From contig NZ_JANZKW010000003.1 in the NCBI RefSeq assembly GCF_027257935.1, positions 248,001-312,000 of the forward strand: a stretch of DNA of 64,000 bases. The letters are read 5' to 3'. The stretch is from Chitinimonas sp. BJYL2 (GTDB lineage Bacteria > Pseudomonadota > Gammaproteobacteria > Burkholderiales > Chitinimonadaceae). This document shows, one piece after another, positions 47,393 to 59,110 of the stretch. The stretch's first letter is position 1; the number at the start of each line of letters is the position of its first letter. The notes under the pieces were generated by a model. It was not told the DNA's origin. It saw only the letters and a list, made by a program, of their open reading frames with translations, and did no database searches. The position numbers and the translations under genes are program-made.

Positions 47393-48211
47393 GTGATCAA
47401 TCCGATAGGCAGTAATGGTACAGGCCTGGGCCTGCGTACGCTCGACAGCAACCGCGAGGCGCAGGCGCGTAGCCTGCAGCAATTGTCCAGCGGCAAGCGG
47501 ATCAACAGCGCAGCGGACGATGTGGCCGCCAGCGCCATTGTGGAGCAGTTTGCCGCCCAGATCGTGGGCAGCAATCAAGCGGCCCGCAATCTTAATGACG
47601 GCATCTCGCAGGCACAGGTTGCCGAAGGCGCGTTGAGCAGCGTAACCGACAATACCTTGCGCATCCGGGAGTTGACGGTGCAAGCAGGTAACAGCACCTT
47701 GAGTGCGCAGGACCGGCAGGCCATTCAGGAAGAGGTGAGTGCGCTGGGGCAGGCGAATGCCAGTACGCTCAGTCAGGCCAGTTTCAACGGACAGTCGCTC
47801 TTTGACGGGGGCAGCAAAACCTTCCAGGCTGGCCCCAACGCCGGAGACCAGCTATCCGTATCGTTTGCGGGTGTGTCGGCATCCGCCCTTGCTGGCAGCG
47901 CCGGCGGGCTGGATTTGTCGAACGCAGCGGCGGCCAGTGCCTCACTGGAGAAGATCGATAGCGATTTGCGTTCGGTCAGCGGTGCGCGTGCCGAACTGGG
48001 GGCGCTGACTAACCGGTTTGAAGCCGGCATCAACAGCTTGCGCAGCAATGCGGAAAACCTCTCGGCGGCGCGCAGCCGAATGGCGGATACCGATTACGCT
48101 GCCACCACAGCGCGCAATGCAGCCGAACGTATCCGTTCGGAGGCAGGGCTGGCCGTGCAGGCACAGGCGAATGCCAACTCCCGGCAGGTGCTGTCCCTGT
48201 TACGCACCTGA
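47393..48211 (+). CDS. Short flagellin
   Basis: A 272-residue flagellin starting at GTG 47393 after AGGAGG. The D0/D1 N-terminal region (LQQLSSGKRINSAADDVAAS, NDGISQAQVAEGALSSV) and C-terminal region (SRMADTDYAATTARNAAERI ... VLSLLRT) are intact, but the central D2/D3 part is reduced to about 50 residues. No chaperone, cap or other flagellar gene is nearby. It is divergent from the CDF gene and ends in a strong terminator. It may be an accessory or minor flagellin. Confidence 0.9.
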   Translation: MINPIGSNGTGLGLRTLDSNREAQARSLQQLSSGKRINSAADDVAASAIVEQFAAQIVGSNQAARNLNDGISQAQVAEGALSSVTDNTLRIRELTVQAGNSTLSAQDRQAIQEEVSALGQANASTLSQASFNGQSLFDGGSKTFQAGPNAGDQLSVSFAGVSASALAGSAGGLDLSNAAAASASLEKIDSDLRSVSGARAELGALTNRFEAGINSLRSNAENLSAARSRMADTDYAATTARNAAERIRSEAGLAVQAQANANSRQVLSLLRT

Positions 48212-51664: not shown

Positions 51665-51740
51665 TGGCTCCCCGACCTGGGCTCGAACCAGGGACCTACG
51701 GATTAACAGTCCGGCGCTCTACCGACTGAGCTATCGGGGA
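51665..51740 (-). tRNA. tRNA-Asn (GTT)
   Basis: A 76-base tRNA read on the minus strand, beginning TCCCCGATAGCTCAG and ending with an encoded CCA. The acceptor stem TCCCCGA/TCGGGGA is perfect, the T arm is GGTTCGAGCCC-like and the anticodon GTT falls at positions 34-36 (51707-51705). The 5' end and fold fit the standard cloverleaf. Confidence 0.97.
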
Positions 51741-51883
51741 AAGGACGCGCACGATAATCGGCGCCGCGCGCCTTGTCAAAATCTTTTTTCAGGCTGGGTC
51801 GTGCTTTCCTGTCAAATCAGCAGCTTGCTGCTGCGGGTAGAATGCGCAACTCGATTGTTCGTCGTTTACCAAGCGCTAATCTC

Positions 51884-52621
51884 ATGCAGCCCATTGCCAT
51901 CATCCAGCACGTCGCCGACGACGGCCCAGCCTACTTCGCCACCTGGCTTGAACAGCAAGGCCACGCCTACCAGGTTTTCCGTATGGATCAGGGCGATGAC
52001 CTGCCGGCGCATGCCGCTGACCATGCCGGCTGGTGCGTGCTTGGCGGGCCGATGAGTGCCAACGATGCGCTGCCTTACTACCCGCTACTGTTTGCGCGGC
52101 TACGTGAAGCGGTGGACTTGCGTATTCCCTTGATTGGCCACTGCCTGGGCGGGCAGATCATCAGCCGCGTGCTGGGCGGTACCGTCAGTGCCTCTGAAAA
52201 CGTGGAGATAGGCTGGAGTGATTTGCGGGTTGAGGCGGGCGGTAACGCCTGGCTGGCCGGCGCGGCGGCTGCACGTTTTTTCCAGTGGCATGGCGAGAGC
52301 TTCTCGATCCCGCTTGGCGCGCAGCGCATCATGACCGGCGATTACTGCGCCAATCAGGCATTCGTGTATGACGATATTCACCTCGGCATGCAGTTCCATT
52401 GCGAAGTTACCGAAGACAAGGTGCGTCGTTGGCTGGTACTGGGGCATGACGAACTGATTCACAGTACCTCGCCCGCAGTGCAGCAGGCGGGTGCCCTGTT
52501 GCCGGATCTGCCGGCCAGCGTTGCGCTCAGTCAGCAGATGGCCAGCGCCCTCTACGCGCGCTGGTGGCAGGGTGTGCAGGTGCGCTCAGTTGAGCGTGGT
52601 CATGCCGCCGCTCAGGCGTAG
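51884..52621 (+). CDS. Class I glutamine amidotransferase-like protein
   Basis: A 245-residue protein starting at ATG 51884. The catalytic triad is visible: nucleophile in LIGHCLGGQIISR, and His and Glu in GMQFHCEVTEDKV. The family (GuaA-type GATase1 domain alone) hydrolyses glutamine or acts as a peptidase on related amides. The C-terminal dozen residues overlap the sequence duplicated at 56.98 kb, so its natural end may have been altered. It is divergent from tRNA-Asn. Confidence 0.88.
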   Translation: MQPIAIIQHVADDGPAYFATWLEQQGHAYQVFRMDQGDDLPAHAADHAGWCVLGGPMSANDALPYYPLLFARLREAVDLRIPLIGHCLGGQIISRVLGGTVSASENVEIGWSDLRVEAGGNAWLAGAAAARFFQWHGESFSIPLGAQRIMTGDYCANQAFVYDDIHLGMQFHCEVTEDKVRRWLVLGHDELIHSTSPAVQQAGALLPDLPASVALSQQMASALYARWWQGVQVRSVERGHAAAQA

Positions 52622-52629
52622 TTTGGTGA

Positions 52630-52770
52630 TCAGACTATTTGCGGCGAGCCGGTTTTCTGCTGCAGTACGCGCAGGTAGTCACTGAGCCACTCGTACTGGA
52701 CGGCACTGCTGCCGTGATGGCTCCGCAGCCAGTTGGCGAGCAGGCATTCCATATCCTTGGGGCCGTACAC
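52630..52770 (-). pseudogene. Broken copy of the 3' end of the PAS/LuxR-like gene at 56967
   Basis: Reading the minus strand from 52770 gives VYGPKDMECLLANWLRSHHG then SSAVQYEWLSDYLRVLQQKT, nearly the C-terminal block of the 56967-57578 protein (VYGFNDMECRLANWLLSHHG). About 4 bases are missing after the KTGS codons, so the frame breaks and stops at 52632-52630. No 5' part exists: similarity stops sharply at 52770. DNA similarity also continues leftwards to about 52600, inside the amidotransferase gene end. Confidence 0.85.
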
Positions 52771-53051
52771 AGTCTTTCTATAAGTACGTGAGTGCTTCCC
52801 TGATAAATCAGTAGCTTGTCCTTTTCTGGCGAGTGCGGGTGGTGTGCCTTAATGTGCGCTTGGTCAATGGCATAGACCGTTACCTATTCGCTCGAACAGG
52901 ATAGTTCCAGTGAATACCACCAGACTTGGCAACTCCCGTAGCTAAGCGCGTTGGCGTACGGACATCAGCTCTCCAATTCTCCAAGGTTCATGCGTTCTGA
53001 TCCCAGAACCCTGCAATTTTTTCCAGTCGCAGGATTTACTCAGAGGTCACC
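52771..53051. other. Left edge of the stress island, no gene seen
   Basis: About 280 bases between the gene fragment and the first island gene. No reading frame, RNA or clear promoter is recognised. It ends with CAGAGGTCACC before the ATG at 53052. Base composition looks less GC-rich than the flanking genes. Confidence 0.4.
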
Positions 53052-53573
53052 ATGAACAAACACAGCGAATCCAACACCCATCACGGCGCCAGCAAAACCG
53101 ATGGCATCGATCCGAAAACTGGCGAACACAAAGCCATACCCAACCCTAACCCGTATGAGCCGGCATCGGTGCCCGGGCCGAAGCAGCCGCTAACGGAACC
53201 GACCGATACCCCGCCGATTAAAGGACCGGTGAAAGATGAGTCGACCACCGACGCCGTACACCAGGAAACGGCCCGTACAACGCGCGCCGTCAAACAGGGA
53301 ACCGAACAATTCCTCGGGTATTCGCAATTGATCACCCTGGCAACCAGTGACGTGATTCAGCGGTACTTCACGACCATTGAACGCAACACACAGCGCTATT
53401 GCTACGCGATCAATGCCTATCTGGATGCATTCCGGGACGAGCTTACCCATCTTGGACATGATGACGAGGACGACCAGGATGCCGCACGTCGCTCATCGGC
53501 TATGCCTTATGCGCAACGCGCAAGGGCAGACAGCGGGCGTAGCGATACCCGCTCGCAGAACTCGCGCACCTAG
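53052..53573 (+). CDS. Hypothetical hydrophilic protein, possibly phasin-like
   Basis: A 173-residue protein. The first 80 residues are disordered (Ser/His/Pro/Thr-rich; NPNPYEPASVPGPKQP). A helical segment (about 82-135; TEQFLGYSQLITLATSDVIQ) resembles phasins, the proteins coating polyhydroxyalkanoate granules, but weakly. The tail is polar (DDEDDQDAARRSS). A downstream esterase of the PHB-depolymerase family fits that reading without proving it. Confidence 0.65.
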   Translation: MNKHSESNTHHGASKTDGIDPKTGEHKAIPNPNPYEPASVPGPKQPLTEPTDTPPIKGPVKDESTTDAVHQETARTTRAVKQGTEQFLGYSQLITLATSDVIQRYFTTIERNTQRYCYAINAYLDAFRDELTHLGHDDEDDQDAARRSSAMPYAQRARADSGRSDTRSQNSRT

Positions 53574-53845
53574 GTATTGCCGTCTTTTCCTGGCCGCTCT
53601 GATACCGATGCGGCAATAAGGTTAGGCCCTGCCATCTACTCGTCATCCAACCAGGAGGCCGGTAGTTTGCGGGGCCTTTTCATGTCCTGCCGTACCGCTA
53701 TCTCGCAGCAGGCGGGGCAGGTGGGGCCCAGGGCTGCGCAGGGTTCGTTAGCGTACCGACAGTGGCTTTAATCAGGCCGATTGTCGACGCGTCGTACCCA
53801 TCCTGACGTGCCGCATCCCGCGGCAGCAGGAATCGCTGAGAGGTC

Positions 53846-53998
53846 ATGAATATGTCTACCCAAAAGAACACCCCCACCGAAGCAGGCAAGACCGCTGCCC
53901 CGAGCACCAAGTCGGATTCAAAAACCGATTCAGCCAAACAGTCGTCCAGTAGCGCCAAGACGAGTCCCAAGCCTGCTACCAATCAACAGGCCAAGTAG
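53846..53998 (+). CDS. Small Ser/Thr/Lys/Ala-rich protein
   Basis: A 50-residue low-complexity protein (NMSTQKNTPTEAGKTAAPST followed by KSDSK...PATNQQAK), basic and presumably disordered. A GAGAGG site lies just upstream; the ATG at 53852 would be better spaced than the one at 53846. It lies between the two larger island genes in the same direction. Coding status rests on the ribosome site and clean frame only. Function unknown. Confidence 0.5.
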   Translation: MNMSTQKNTPTEAGKTAAPSTKSDSKTDSAKQSSSSAKTSPKPATNQQAK

Positions 53999-54088
53999 TG
54001 TTGTTCCCCGTTATGCCCCGGTGTAACGGGGGCCGCTCGCCCGCTTGCAAGCTGCGTCTCCGGTTGCAGGCCCACCTAGGAGGTGATC

Positions 54089-55051
54089 ATGAACAAACCC
54101 GGTGAATTAAGTGTGCCTTACACGATGACCGATACCCTGAATGCAGCACAACTGACCGCCAGCACCATGTCATGGGGGGCAATACTGGCAGGCGCTGCGG
54201 CTGCCGCGGCCTTGTCCTTGATTTTGCTGCTGCTGGGCGTGGGCCTTGGCTTGTCGTCGGTTTCTCCCTGGGTAAATCGCGGCGTAAGCGCAACGACCCT
54301 CGGGGTTTCTACCATTCTCTGGCTAGCCTTCACCCAACTGCTGGCATCGGGCGTTGGCGGCTATCTGGCGGGCCGACTGAGAAACAGCTGGGTCGATGTC
54401 CGTACCGACGAAGTCTACTTTCGTGATACGGCGCATGGCTTTCTTGCCTGGGCAATCGCTTCGCTGGTCACGGCTTCGTTGCTGACCTCTGCGGTGGGTG
54501 CCGTGGTCAGTGGTGGCGCCCAGGCAGGCGGAGCACTTGCCAAGGAGGCGACCTCCGCGGCAATGACGGCTACGTTGGGTTCGGGCACGGCCCGAGCGGA
54601 GGGCGAAGCTGCGGTGTTGCCCTATTTTGTGGATAGCTTGTTTCGCCAGGAGCGTACGCCGACCGCCGGCACGAATGCCGTCAATAGCAACGATGCGGTA
54701 TCCCTTACTCCGCTGGCACCGCTTTCCACAGCCGTTAACTATGAAATCACCCGCATCGTGATGACCGCCCTGCAGGCGGGCAGCCTAGCCCCGGAAGACC
54801 TCAGCTACTTGGGTCAGGTGGTCGCAATACACACGGGTCTGAACCAGCAAGCGGCTGAGAAACGGGTGGGCGAGACGTTCGCACGCCTGCAAGCGACTCT
54901 GGGCGCCGCAGAAACCACGGCCCGGGATGCCACTGACCGTGCACGAAAGGCTGCAGCCAACGCAGCTCTGTGGCTCTTCATCTCGCTGCTGATAGGCGCA
55001 TTTTTTGCCAGCTTGGCAGCGACGCTTGGTGGTCGTCAACGTGATCACTGA
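54089..55051 (+). CDS. Hypothetical membrane protein (PhnA-like/stress-associated type)
   Basis: A 320-residue protein with a near-perfect ribosome site TAGGAGGTGATC. Helices at about 28-55 (WGAILAGAAAAAALSLILLL), 70-92, 116-142, and a last one near 290-312 (NAALWLFISLLIGAFFASLA) enclose a long non-membrane stretch (about 150-285). SWGAILAGAAAA at the first helix is a pattern I recall from uncharacterised proteins sometimes named PhnA-like, often next to stress genes. Function unknown. Confidence 0.75.
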   Translation: MNKPGELSVPYTMTDTLNAAQLTASTMSWGAILAGAAAAAALSLILLLLGVGLGLSSVSPWVNRGVSATTLGVSTILWLAFTQLLASGVGGYLAGRLRNSWVDVRTDEVYFRDTAHGFLAWAIASLVTASLLTSAVGAVVSGGAQAGGALAKEATSAAMTATLGSGTARAEGEAAVLPYFVDSLFRQERTPTAGTNAVNSNDAVSLTPLAPLSTAVNYEITRIVMTALQAGSLAPEDLSYLGQVVAIHTGLNQQAAEKRVGETFARLQATLGAAETTARDATDRARKAAANAALWLFISLLIGAFFASLAATLGGRQRDH

Positions 55052-55084
55052 TCACCCTTCCACTCATTCGTAAAGGAGGTCGCC

Positions 55085-55159
55085 GTGCGCTCGCTACTGC
55101 TGTTTTTCCTGGGTGTTCCCATCCCCATCATCATCCTGATTGCCCTGTTCTTTCGGTGA
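55085..55159 (+). CDS. 24-residue membrane microprotein
   Basis: GTG at 55085 is preceded by AAAGGAGG at ideal spacing. It encodes VRSLLLFFLGVPIPIIILIA then LFFR and a stop: a single hydrophobic helix with a central Pro-Ile-Pro and basic ends. I believe similar peptides of this size recur next to stress genes in other proteobacteria. It lies 33 bases after the membrane protein gene and before the hemerythrin gene. Too short for usual gene callers. Confidence 0.65.
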   Translation: MRSLLLFFLGVPIPIIILIALFFR

Positions 55160-55197
55160 TCGCGGTTAATCTTTCACTCAATACAATGGAAAAAGCC

Positions 55198-55704
55198 ATG
55201 ACAACTGTCACCAGCAAACCTAGCAAGCTCGATAGCCTGCCCAAAGCACAAGACGCTACCGTGCTATTGCGGGCAGACCACACCTTGGTCAGCGGTCTTT
55301 TTGCCGACTATGAAAAAAAGCCCTCGCCCGTCAAGAAGAAGCAACTGGTTGCGCAGATCTGTGCCGAGCTCAGCGTACACGCCCAAGTTGAGGAGGAAAT
55401 CTTCTATCCCGCCGTCAAACGAGCCTTGCATGACAAGGAGCTGGTTCCCGAGGCTACGGTAGAGCACGCCACTCTCAGGGCGCTGATCGCAGAGGTAGAA
55501 GGCGTGGAGCCTGATGGTGAAATGTTCGATGCCAAGATCAAGGTGTTGGGTGAGTACGTGAAGCATCACGTCAAGGAAGAGCAGAACGAAATGTTTCCCA
55601 AGGCCAAGTCCACCAATCTGGATATGACCAAACTGGGAGCGGAAATTGCCGAGCGCAAGAAAGCCCTGTTTGCCGAACGCAGTCCGGATGACTTTCCTGT
55701 TTGA
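55198..55704 (+). CDS. Hemerythrin (HHE) domain protein
   Basis: A 168-residue cytosolic protein. Iron ligands of the four-helix bundle are visible: RADHTLVSGLF, HAQVEEEIFYP, VEHATLRALI and KHHVKEEQNEMFP. Bacterial HHE proteins bind oxygen or NO or buffer iron under stress. ATG 55198 has GGA upstream; ATG 55186 is in frame too. It belongs to the island's co-directional gene set. Confidence 0.93.
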   Translation: MTTVTSKPSKLDSLPKAQDATVLLRADHTLVSGLFADYEKKPSPVKKKQLVAQICAELSVHAQVEEEIFYPAVKRALHDKELVPEATVEHATLRALIAEVEGVEPDGEMFDAKIKVLGEYVKHHVKEEQNEMFPKAKSTNLDMTKLGAEIAERKKALFAERSPDDFPV

Positions 55705-55751
55705 ACCGGACTTTAGGCTGTATTGCCGTCAATGAGAGGGAAAGGCGCGAG

Positions 55752-56888
55752 ATGGACGAACGTTGGCTAAACAGGCTGCAGGAAGCAACCCGACTAACAG
55801 CTCAGGGCAGTGTGATGGAGGCAACGGCGCTGATACAGCGGGCCCTGCGTAAGGACCCGCCTGTGATTGCCGCAAAGGTCGCGTCGCTTGACGGGGCGGC
55901 ACCGATCGAAGGCGTTTTTCATGTGGTTGATACCGACACCGTGCTGCGAGGCGAGGTGTTGGTTGACACACCACCTTACAGACGTGCGCGCGGCACTTTC
56001 CCCGTGCATGAGGTGCCTGGCTTTATCGACGGTACTTACCGTTGTGCAGCAGGTAGTCGTAGTTACAAGCTCTATGTTCCCGGTGGCTATCAGGGTCAGT
56101 CCTTGCCTTTGATCGTGATGCTGCACGGGTGCACTCAGCAGCCTGATGACTTTGCTGCCGGTACGCAGATGAATGGGCTCGCAGAGAAGCATTCATGTTT
56201 CGTGCTCTATCCCGCTCAGTCCGGCGAGGCTAATAGCCACCGTTGCTGGAACTGGTTCAAGGAGGCAGACCAGATGAGGGACAGTGGCGAACCCGCCATT
56301 CTGGCGGGGATGACGCAAGATATCGTGCGCCAATACCAGATTGATTCGCGCCGGGTTTTTGTAGCCGGTTTGTCCGCGGGCGGTGCCATGGCCGTCATCA
56401 TGGGGACCACTTATCCCGATCTGTTTGCAGCCGTTGGCGTGCATTCCGGCCTGCCTTATGCTGCAGCGAGCGATATGACGTCCGCACTGCACGCCATGCA
56501 CCACGGTAAAAGTCACCAAGGGGCGTGCTTACAAGGCTGGAAAGGACGACCAACCATCGTGTTTCATGGCGATCAGGACAAGACGGTGCATCCTGTGAAT
56601 GGTGAAAAACTCGCCAAACAGGCCGAGTCAGCCTTGCGGGCCAAAGCCAAGGTACCCATCGATTACCCGCCCACTTCACGCCGGCAAGGCAAAGTGAGGC
56701 ATGGACACCGCTATACGGTCACGGTTTACCCTCATGCGGATGGCCGCCCGATGATCGAGCATTGGCTCATACATGGTGCCGGACACGCTTGGTCGGGCGG
56801 GAGCCGCAAAGGCAGTTTTACCGACGCACAAGGACCCGATGCCAGTGAGGAGATGCTTAGATTCTTCTTGGAGCAATCTCCGAGCTGA
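55752..56888 (+). CDS. PHB-depolymerase-family esterase (LpqC-like)
   Basis: A 378-residue alpha/beta-hydrolase starting at ATG 55752. The family start LPLIVMLHGCTQQPDDFAAG, nucleophile elbow GLSAGGAM, acid in VFHGDQDKTVHP and histidine in HGAGHAWSGG are in order. HRCWNWF is another depolymerase signature. No signal peptide is present and about 110 N-terminal residues precede the core, so it is likely intracellular. The substrate may be a polyhydroxyalkanoate oligomer or another ester. Confidence 0.9.
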   Translation: MDERWLNRLQEATRLTAQGSVMEATALIQRALRKDPPVIAAKVASLDGAAPIEGVFHVVDTDTVLRGEVLVDTPPYRRARGTFPVHEVPGFIDGTYRCAAGSRSYKLYVPGGYQGQSLPLIVMLHGCTQQPDDFAAGTQMNGLAEKHSCFVLYPAQSGEANSHRCWNWFKEADQMRDSGEPAILAGMTQDIVRQYQIDSRRVFVAGLSAGGAMAVIMGTTYPDLFAAVGVHSGLPYAAASDMTSALHAMHHGKSHQGACLQGWKGRPTIVFHGDQDKTVHPVNGEKLAKQAESALRAKAKVPIDYPPTSRRQGKVRHGHRYTVTVYPHADGRPMIEHWLIHGAGHAWSGGSRKGSFTDAQGPDASEEMLRFFLEQSPS

Positions 56889-56966
56889 TAGCCCAACCGG
56901 GATATGCGCGTCCTTTACCCAGCCTGACTGCAATGAGAGCGCCCGGTCAGGCATCCTTGTGATCCC

Positions 56967-57578
56967 TTAGTTCATGGGAGGCATGCCGCTACAGAGGCGC
57001 AGTTCGGTGATCAGGCTGTCGGCATCGAGCGAGCCTGTTTTCTGTTGCAGCACGCGCAGGCAACCAGTGAGCCATTCATATTGGATGGCGCTGCTGCCAT
57101 GGTGGCTCAGCAGCCAGTTTGCAAGCCGGCATTCCATATCGTTGAATCCGTAAACCTGCCGCCAGAGGATATCCGGGCTCGCATGGTTTTGCCCAAGTAC
57201 CAGCAGGAGGGCGTGTTGCCCGGTACAGGAGGCCTGTTCGCGCCAGGTTGGTGGCAGCGGCAGGCAGATCAGTCGGGCATGGAGTTGGCTGAGACGCAGA
57301 CTGCTTGGGTGCATGGGGCCCAGCCGGCCGCTGGCATTGGCCACTGCCACACCCAGCGCCGTGCCCAGGTCGGCAACGGCAAGCCGCTGGTCGCGCATGA
57401 CCATGCCGCTCCCGCCATGCAGCAACAGGCTGGCCGCGACATTGGTGTGCACGATCCGGCAATCCGCATCCACAATCATCAGTGCGGCGTGACCTTGTCC
57501 AGTCCAGTGGCGCTCCCGCGATCCGGACAGGGGAAGTGATACGGCGGGACTCTGGTGTATTGGCAGCTGGGTCGTCAT
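56967..57578 (-). CDS. PAS-like protein with a divergent LuxR-type C-terminus
   Basis: A 203-residue protein; ATG 57578 has GGAGGAA upstream. Residues about 30-130 look like a PAS-type sensor (HAALMIVDADCRIVHTNVAA, then LLLHGGSGMVMRDQRLAVAD). The C-terminus (VYGFNDMECRLANWLLSHHG, TGCLRVLQQKTGSLDADSLI) aligns with the LuxR-type helix-turn-helix seen after PAS domains, but the usual recognition-helix residues are replaced by YEWLTG, so DNA binding is doubtful. A broken copy of its 3' end lies at 52630-52770 across the island. Confidence 0.7.
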   Translation of the reverse strand: MTTQLPIHQSPAVSLPLSGSRERHWTGQGHAALMIVDADCRIVHTNVAASLLLHGGSGMVMRDQRLAVADLGTALGVAVANASGRLGPMHPSSLRLSQLHARLICLPLPPTWREQASCTGQHALLLVLGQNHASPDILWRQVYGFNDMECRLANWLLSHHGSSAIQYEWLTGCLRVLQQKTGSLDADSLITELRLCSGMPPMN

Positions 57579-57715: not shown

Positions 57716-59110
57716 TCAGGCCGCCTGCTGCGCTGCCAGCCAGCCATAGAGCCGGCTGTTGTCGCTCCAGGCTACGTTGAAGCGGAAGTGCCGGCTGTCT
57801 TCGCCATCGGGCAGATAGAACCGGCCCGGCGCCAGCGCGATGCCTGCGGCGGCGGCGGTGCGGGTCAGTTTGGCGGGGTCCAGGCCGGCCGGGGCTTCTG
57901 CCCACAGGAACAAGCCGCCTCCGGGTTGATGGAACAGTGACCAGCCCAGTTCGCCAAGGCGTTTGCCTACCCGTTGCTGCGCCTCGCTCAACCGTTCCCG
58001 CAGCCGCTCGAGGTGAGCGCGGTGGTGGCCATCACTCAGCATGGCGAGTACACAGGCATCGAGGATTTCGGAGCCGGTGAGCCCGGCGGCCATGCGTAAC
58101 TGGGTGGCGCGCGCGCTCAGGGCCGGGCTCGCGGCCAGGTAGCCCAGACGCAAGGCAGGTGACAGGGTTTTGGAAAAACTCCCCAGATAGATCACCCGGT
58201 CCAGGCCATCCAGGCTGGCCAGTGTGGGCGATGGGCTGGCCAGCAGATCGGCAAACGGGTCGTCTTCCACCACATGGAAATCATGGCGTTCTGCCAGCTT
58301 GAGTATCTGATGTGCAGTCTGAGCCGTTGTGCTGGTGCCGGTAGGGTTGTGCAGGGCGCTGTTGGTAAAGAAGGCAACCGGACGATGACGGCTGGCCAGC
58401 TCGGCCAGCGCTGCAATGTCCGGGCCGTTGGCGGTGCGCGGCACCCCGCGGATCAGCGCCCCGTGGCTTTGCAGTGCGGCCAGCAAGGTGGAGTAGCCGG
58501 GGGCATCGACGAGCACGGTATGACCGGGTTTGACCAGCAGGCGGATTGCCAGATCCAGCCCCTGGCTGGCGCCGTGGGTCAGCACAATCTGCTCGGCAGG
58601 TGCCTCGATTCCCCTGAGCGCGAGCCGCCATTGCAGTTGCTGGCGCAACTCGGGTAGCCCTTGCGGATGTCCGTAGCGGGTCAGCTGTTCACCGGGCGCC
58701 TTGGCCAACTGCCGCAGGGCACTGCGTACGCCATCCTCGAATAGCCAGTCTGGCGGCAACCAGCCGCTTCCCGCCGGTAGATCCAGGGCTTGGTCTTCAT
58801 AGACCCGGCTGAGTAGCCAGGCATCATCCACCGGCGCGCGAGCCGGTGCGCGTGCGCCAGCGGCGTGCCGGGCCGATACAAAATAGCCGCGAGCGCGCTC
58901 GGCATGAATCCAGCCGGCAGCGACCAGCCGGTTGTAGGCTTCGGCCACCGTGAAAGGGCTGACGGCGAGCGTGCGTGCCAAGCCGCGAACCGAGGGCAGG
59001 CGCGCATTCTCGGCCAGGATGCCGCGTTCAATCTTGGCGATCAGCCCCTGTACGATCTGTTCGGTCAGCGGGGTGGGGGCGGCAGGATCCAGTGGCAGCA
59101 TGGCAGACAT
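57716..59110 (-). CDS. MocR-type regulator (GntR HTH fused to aminotransferase fold)
   Basis: A 464-residue PLP-dependent regulator. An N-terminal GntR winged helix (LPSVRGLARTLAVSPFTVAE, then AYNRLVAAGWIHAERARGYF) is joined by a linker to a fold-type I aminotransferase domain with the PLP lysine in YLGSFSKTLSPALRLGYLAA. Start ATG 59110 or 59101. A 10-base inverted repeat spans the start region. No classic MocR target such as pdxS/T or a transporter is adjacent; the regulated gene is unknown. Confidence 0.9.
   Translation of the reverse strand: MSAMLPLDPAAPTPLTEQIVQGLIAKIERGILAENARLPSVRGLARTLAVSPFTVAEAYNRLVAAGWIHAERARGYFVSARHAAGARAPARAPVDDAWLLSRVYEDQALDLPAGSGWLPPDWLFEDGVRSALRQLAKAPGEQLTRYGHPQGLPELRQQLQWRLALRGIEAPAEQIVLTHGASQGLDLAIRLLVKPGHTVLVDAPGYSTLLAALQSHGALIRGVPRTANGPDIAALAELASRHRPVAFFTNSALHNPTGTSTTAQTAHQILKLAERHDFHVVEDDPFADLLASPSPTLASLDGLDRVIYLGSFSKTLSPALRLGYLAASPALSARATQLRMAAGLTGSEILDACVLAMLSDGHHRAHLERLRERLSEAQQRVGKRLGELGWSLFHQPGGGLFLWAEAPAGLDPAKLTRTAAAAGIALAPGRFYLPDGEDSRHFRFNVAWSDNSRLYGWLAAQQAA

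Follow-up and report, generated by a model that had tools for sequence, protein, structure and literature searches.

A displaced LuxR-like gene end and a second, short direct repeat beside a cassette of probable stress genes in Chitinimonas sp. BJYL2

We analyzed a window of 64,000 nucleotides from Chitinimonas sp. BJYL2 (assembly GCF_027257935.1, contig NZ_JANZKW010000003.1, positions 248,001 to 312,000 of the forward strand; coordinates below are those of the window), in which a cassette of six genes is bordered on one side by an intact LuxR-like gene (luxR) and on the other by a broken copy of its 3′ end. The order along the window is tRNA-Asn, a short sequence named here U, a class-I glutamine amidotransferase gene (GAT; 51884-52621, plus strand, Pfam PF00117), the stranded end of luxR (luxR3′), a degraded second copy of U (U′), the cassette, luxR and mocR. 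The layout is thus an imperfect tandem duplication, the first unit of which carries GAT and the second the cassette. A tRNA-Asn gene found with ARAGORN (51665-51740, minus strand) and the gene of a MocR-type GntR/aminotransferase regulator (57716-59110, minus strand, PF00392 and PF00155) form the left and right edges of the interval. Intact luxR (56967-57578, minus strand) encodes a protein of 203 amino acids, P0001, with relatives beside mocR in two genomes of the same family, G005 and G006.

The segment 52586-52770 (minus strand) is a copy of the last 62 codons and the stop codon of luxR (codons 142 to stop) in the same orientation; its counterpart within the intact gene spans 56967-57155. 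The two copies are 77.8% identical over 185 aligned bases, with a single gap of 4 bases that shifts the frame of the left one, and their local alignment score is 161 compared to a maximum of 26 in 300 shuffles. A first-pass annotation of this DNA had described a repeat of about 170 bases that had lost about 4, with the intact gene at the right of the island and the broken end at its left, and the alignment bears out both descriptions: a direct repeat of the luxR 3′ end is present at both cassette borders, and the displaced old end has been retained beside the cassette. Searching the whole genome (3.45 Mb, 8 contigs) with the protein returned two matches at E ≤ 0.001, intact luxR and the fragment, and no third copy. 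The left copy begins within the GAT coding sequence, 36 bases (52586-52621) being common to both reading directions, and its stop codon falls inside the GAT 3′ end. GAT reads about 12 extra C-terminal residues and its stop from the antisense of the stranded end, while in the alignment the GAT of five relatives terminates 10-13 residues earlier.

P0001 had no Pfam or NCBIfam match, and a first scan of genome contigs with it gave no relative. Its predicted structure, strands followed by four C-terminal helices with a mean predicted local distance difference test score (pLDDT) of 45, was too poor for a fold search, so that "PAS/LuxR-like" is a label taken from the first-pass annotation and from similarity judged by eye. 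Nearly full-length relatives occurred in 2 of 59 other genomes, G005 and G006 (46-47% identical, query residues 29-199). Matches in two further genomes, G001 and G002, were set aside as weak and partial (28-30% identity).

The second repeat lies at the break. U (51782-51846, core 51801-51827, plus strand) stands between tRNA-Asn and GAT, and sequence comparison placed U′ at 52773-52837 (core 52792-52818, plus strand). Homology to luxR ends at 52770 and homology to U begins at 52773, two bases past the broken gene end; both repeats therefore come in the same order, and the new junction 52770/52773 joins the end of one unit to the start of the next. The cores of U and U′ are identical at 23 of 27 bases. 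The similarity scored 34 in a test in which none of 2000 shuffles surpassed 31, and U/U′ outscored every one of 3000 dinucleotide shuffles under all three scoring schemes applied and every one of 1808 tiles cut from the window; with 51741-52585 as query and 52622-57000 as subject, blastn gave E 0.004. A pattern of the 27-base core built from both copies, allowing up to 3 mismatches, occurred in the 3.45 Mb genome only at these two sites, a result that amounts to the absence of other sites, since both copies match the pattern by construction. These comparisons argue for U/U′ as a second repeat that appears well supported but short. In a promoter and terminator scan, tRNA-Asn was preceded on the minus strand by a sigma-70-like site (51779-51751), and the scan did not decide for or against U or U′ being a promoter; promoter-like sites were no commoner than in shuffles.

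An intact gene on one side and its displaced 3′ end on the other is the geometry expected of an integrative element that inserted at the luxR 3′ end with its own integrase, restored the gene, displaced the native end and later lost the integrase. This was the interpretation of the first-pass annotation; its acquired-looking cassette stands, and the insertion itself is weakly supported given U′, the missing integrase and the lack of flanking repeats. For such an island one would expect the DNA past the displaced end to belong to the element, an integrase to turn up at least once, and an empty site to hold one intact gene. The first of these is put in question because the initial 65 bases past the displaced end resemble the DNA upstream of GAT (a short match), which an attachment site does not predict, and homology to cassettes elsewhere starts only at 52929 (in G006) or 52942 (in G003). 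Pfam searches detected no integrase or transposase in the six cassette genes, the three flanking genes and 14 further open reading frames (ORFs) of at least 70 amino acids inside the stretch, in agreement with the earlier remark that no integrase remains. The LuxR-like protein matched no phage or plasmid record at E 1e-5, and its nearly full-length relatives are confined to the two genomes named above, which likewise speaks against a mobile origin of this kind.

Base composition bears on the same question. The comparison of GC content and codon use that the first-pass annotation had suggested showed a GC of 0.575 for 52773-56966 vs. 0.620 for the window; the GC content at third codon positions (GC3) of the four larger cassette genes was 0.61-0.65 vs. 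0.769 ± 0.037 for 35 other window genes, and a codon-adaptation-like index was 0.47-0.57 vs. 0.654 ± 0.065. The lower GC and GC3 of the cassette suit an integrated element, as do the patchy occurrence of one of its genes, orfC, in the order and its presence on plasmids. An element-borne luxR 3′ end, on the other hand, might have left a step in GC3 within intact luxR at codon 142, and none was found (103/141 vs. 43/62, p 0.61); GC3 is alike in GAT, luxR and MocR (0.71-0.73 for the halves of GAT and luxR, 0.72-0.78 for the quarters of MocR). Considering also what follows on cassette relatives and on empty sites, we regard insertion by an integrase as quite unlikely.

The cassette consists, all on the plus strand, of orfA (53052-53573) and orfB (53846-53998, 50 amino acids), both with relatives in G003 and G006 and neither with a Pfam or NCBIfam match; orfC (54089-55051), whose 320-residue product looks by eye like a membrane protein from its hydrophobic stretches and is 75% identical to one in G006; orfD (55085-55159), a hydrophobic peptide of 24 residues with an assumed GTG start and no Pfam match; a hemerythrin-domain protein gene (55198-55704, PF01814); and the gene of a short-chain-length polyhydroxyalkanoate (PHA) depolymerase-type esterase (55752-56888, PF10503, and NF050058 above its cutoff). 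The hemerythrin protein matches the PA2171 persister family, below the family cutoff. "Stress" seems a reasonable label for the predicted function of these genes. Among the papers listed by a literature search for a cassette of this kind, none was relevant.

Parts of the cassette occur at other loci in related genomes. G006 carries orfA-orfB-orfC-hemerythrin at one locus, with a more distant depolymerase and an orfA relative elsewhere; in G003, orfA-orfB-depolymerase is at one such locus and a hemerythrin relative at yet another; in G002, different contigs hold one depolymerase relative, two hemerythrin relatives and an orfC fragment. Nucleotide homology to the window covers 52929-55690 in G006 and 52942-56869 in G003. 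At the G006 locus 3,023 bp (L027:9072-12094) stand where G005 has 148 bp (L208:8389-8536), between flanks that are about 98% identical, a difference due either to a gain of orfA-orfB-orfC-hemerythrin in G006 or to a loss in G005. The best direct match flanking the cassette in G006 was 17 bases long with E 0.33, and G003 gave none; cassette relatives at other loci without a significant flanking repeat are a further point against an integrative element. The G006/G005 comparison offers a natural present/absent pair for the function and movement of the cassette. Across the order, orfC had matches in 43 of 399 genomes, and among 20 neighbourhoods drawn from these 43 a hemerythrin relative adjoined orfC in 6, an orfD relative was near it in 6 and a depolymerase relative lay in the stretch in 5; at E 1e-4 neither orfA nor orfB turned up in any of the 20. 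A relative of orfC was also present in 66 plasmid records. The set orfA-orfB-orfC-orfD-hemerythrin-PHA depolymerase is modular, and its parts come and go between near-identical genomes. Elsewhere in G006 (L061:5507-11608) a second depolymerase-type gene has as neighbours, judged by eye, a catalase-like gene on one side and a CRP-like regulator on the other, in what is probably another stress cluster.

In order to see what other members of the family carry between tRNA-Asn and mocR, ten genomes including this one were compared, with interval content taken from G001 to G006 and G009. The gene content of the interval varies among them. GAT stands directly beside mocR with nothing between in G001 and G003, which is the empty state seen, without the regulator. 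Between GAT and mocR, G004 has a solute-binding-protein-like gene, G005 and G006 a solute-binding-protein gene (NCBIfam, below cutoffs) and a LuxR-like gene, and G009 three genes, two of them ECF-sigma-like and AhpD-like as judged by eye. The G002 genome lacks a close GAT match, and between tRNA-Asn and mocR it carries an aminotransferase-like gene, so named by eye; G007 and G008 showed distant GAT matches only and MocR matches of 42-46% identity, the closest MocR match being 70-78% identical in the other seven of the nine relatives, and 74-78% in the nearest ones, within the genus. The tRNA-Asn gene is also found in the GAT/mocR stretches of G001 to G006; it is single in the window and in G003 to G006, and two tandem tRNA-Asn genes stand at the interval edge in G001 (L030:4697-4974) and G002 (L062:4367-4642). 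Phylogenies of MocR and GAT resolve little within the genus. The empty site proposed by the first-pass annotation, GAT adjoining a single intact luxR without an insert, did not appear in any of the nine relatives; what occurs instead is GAT beside mocR.

The same comparison bears on tandem paralogue decay, in which the cassette would have entered between two complete LuxR-like genes and the left one would have been truncated. The first-pass annotation had named two complete tandem copies in relatives as the observation that would overturn its proposal, and no relative was found to have them, G005 and G006 carrying one copy each. Paralogue decay also leaves U′ at the break unexplained. What fits two coding genes is the distribution of differences between the luxR copies, which affect 9 of 62 first, 7 of 61 second and 25 of 62 third codon positions, an excess at third positions that would be expected if both copies had been coding for part of their divergence. 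Taken together, we consider this history very improbable.

Using the G006 relative as outgroup, we polarized the differences within the first 42 codons. Changes at codon positions 1/2/3 were 1/5/1 in the left copy and 1/1/8 in the right, with 6 third-position differences unassigned; of the 12 residue differences in 56 columns, the left copy accounts for 6 and the right for 1, and 5 could be assigned to neither. In 11 of the 15 third-position differences in the polarized codons an A/T of the right copy faces a G/C of the left, and in 3 the reverse holds. The polarized changes are consistent with selection on the right copy and none on the left, although the assignment is weak, since the outgroup protein is distant (47% identical) and represents one lineage. 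The 22% divergence of the copies, in which the first-pass annotation had seen a sign of an old event, could reflect age or the import of a diverged allele.

These data are relevant to a history within a single genome, in which illegitimate recombination joining luxR codon 142 to a site upstream of GAT would have duplicated a unit of about 1 kb, U-GAT-luxR3′, in tandem, and the cassette would later have taken the place of the second GAT as far as the luxR stop codon. Such a duplication accounts for the two repeats and the order in which they stand, for the nearly abutting junction, for the end of the right repeat at the luxR stop codon, which would be the limit set by selection on luxR, and for the polarized changes, with protein constraint on the right copy and none on the left. 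It requires two events, however, and the stretch 52622-57000 holds no trace of a second GAT by tblastn, the best hits with six GAT proteins being on the opposite strand with E 0.047 and 0.050. The few third-position changes in the left copy (1 vs. 8, with 6 unassigned) would also be unexpected for copies residing in one genome, as far as a distant outgroup lineage allows. We therefore rate this near rival as possible but doubtful.

The explanation that we favour, tentatively and with somewhat less than even confidence, is that an alternative version of the interval was joined beside the native one by one-sided homologous plus illegitimate recombination, a route that needs one event. The interval from tRNA-Asn to mocR would swap genes without a dedicated integrase. 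From a native arrangement U-GAT-luxR-mocR, with GAT and luxR convergent and overlapping, a second, diverged version U′-cassette-luxR would have been joined through homology at the luxR/mocR side and illegitimately at the other end; the break in codon 142 of the native luxR would have left the final 185 bases of that gene stranded beside GAT, the luxR that came in would have taken over the function, and the stranded end would since have been decaying. Support comes from the abrupt change from luxR to U homology between 52770 and 52773, from the standing of U/U′ above shuffles and tiles with a core at two sites only, from the third-position excess, from the variation of the interval in relatives and from a cassette present in G006 and lacking in the 98%-identical G005 without a significant flanking repeat. 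The non-homologous junction is visible in the recipient gene, while placing the homologous side needs a close relative or the donor; we infer that side, the import of the second unit in one step and a donor without GAT.

Several observations weigh against this explanation. U′ is short, with its 27-base core in 65 bases overall, and was initially spotted by eye; beyond the right edge of the core the similarity does not rise above chance, since 914 of 2000 shuffles scored as high. When slightly longer stretches were compared with 1000 plain shuffles, some shuffles exceeded U/U′ in two gap-lenient schemes (163, where the 99th percentile was 162 and the maximum 193; 21.5, where they were 18.5 and 23.5), and in the third scheme U/U′ reached 107, with no shuffle above 104. 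U was not among the hits when the genome was searched by a word-based method with 168 bases from 52774. In five relatives the DNA upstream of GAT has no clearly recognizable U: the score in G001, 77, is above the 95th percentile (71) and below the maximum (81) of 200 shuffles, and the other four are below the 95th percentile. Intact luxR lacks a compositional break and resembles GAT and MocR in GC3, so that its composition does not point to a foreign origin, and no genome with U-cassette-luxR and without GAT was seen.

The locus reflects ordinary genome dynamics, and its interval is a variable pocket in this betaproteobacterial genus. When an island has a broken gene end at its side, that end is by itself no evidence for an integrase, and a second, shorter repeat at the break alters how it is read. 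A broader view, which we put forward as unlikely on present data, is that the interval acts as a gene-exchange pocket where cassettes are swapped between species through the short promoter-proximal U and the converging regulators, without an integrase, and where allelic versions can end up stacked in tandem.

Among known systems, integrative elements such as e14 in icd use and restore the 3′ end of a protein gene. Like them, the locus pairs an intact gene with a displaced 3′ end that has kept the orientation of the gene; it differs in that no integrase was found, the repeat has diverged and GAT-upstream-like DNA stands at the broken end. With partial tandem duplications it shares two direct repeats in the same order and a nearly abutting novel junction, the second unit here having a cassette in place of GAT. 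Orphan 3′ regions are proposed to arise by homology-facilitated illegitimate recombination in Vibrio type VI secretion system (T6SS) effector-immunity arrays and at Rhs loci, a process described there as rare where measured (PMC5361080). As in those scars, a new module lies beside a gene end with the old 3′ end left downstream, and no integrase is invoked (PMC5361080); here, unlike there, the 3′ end is that of a regulator, the module consists of probable stress genes and a second short repeat, U/U′, is at the break.

Outside the interval, a flagellin-like reading frame was noticed by eye at about 47400-48211 of the window, within a larger ORF, with no other flagellar gene recognized by eye in the window ORF list. 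In an alignment scan with GAT, the best 80 of 579 loci were 37-45% identical and mostly titled as Betaproteobacteria or its genera and orders, some being titled just "Proteobacteria" or "bacterium".

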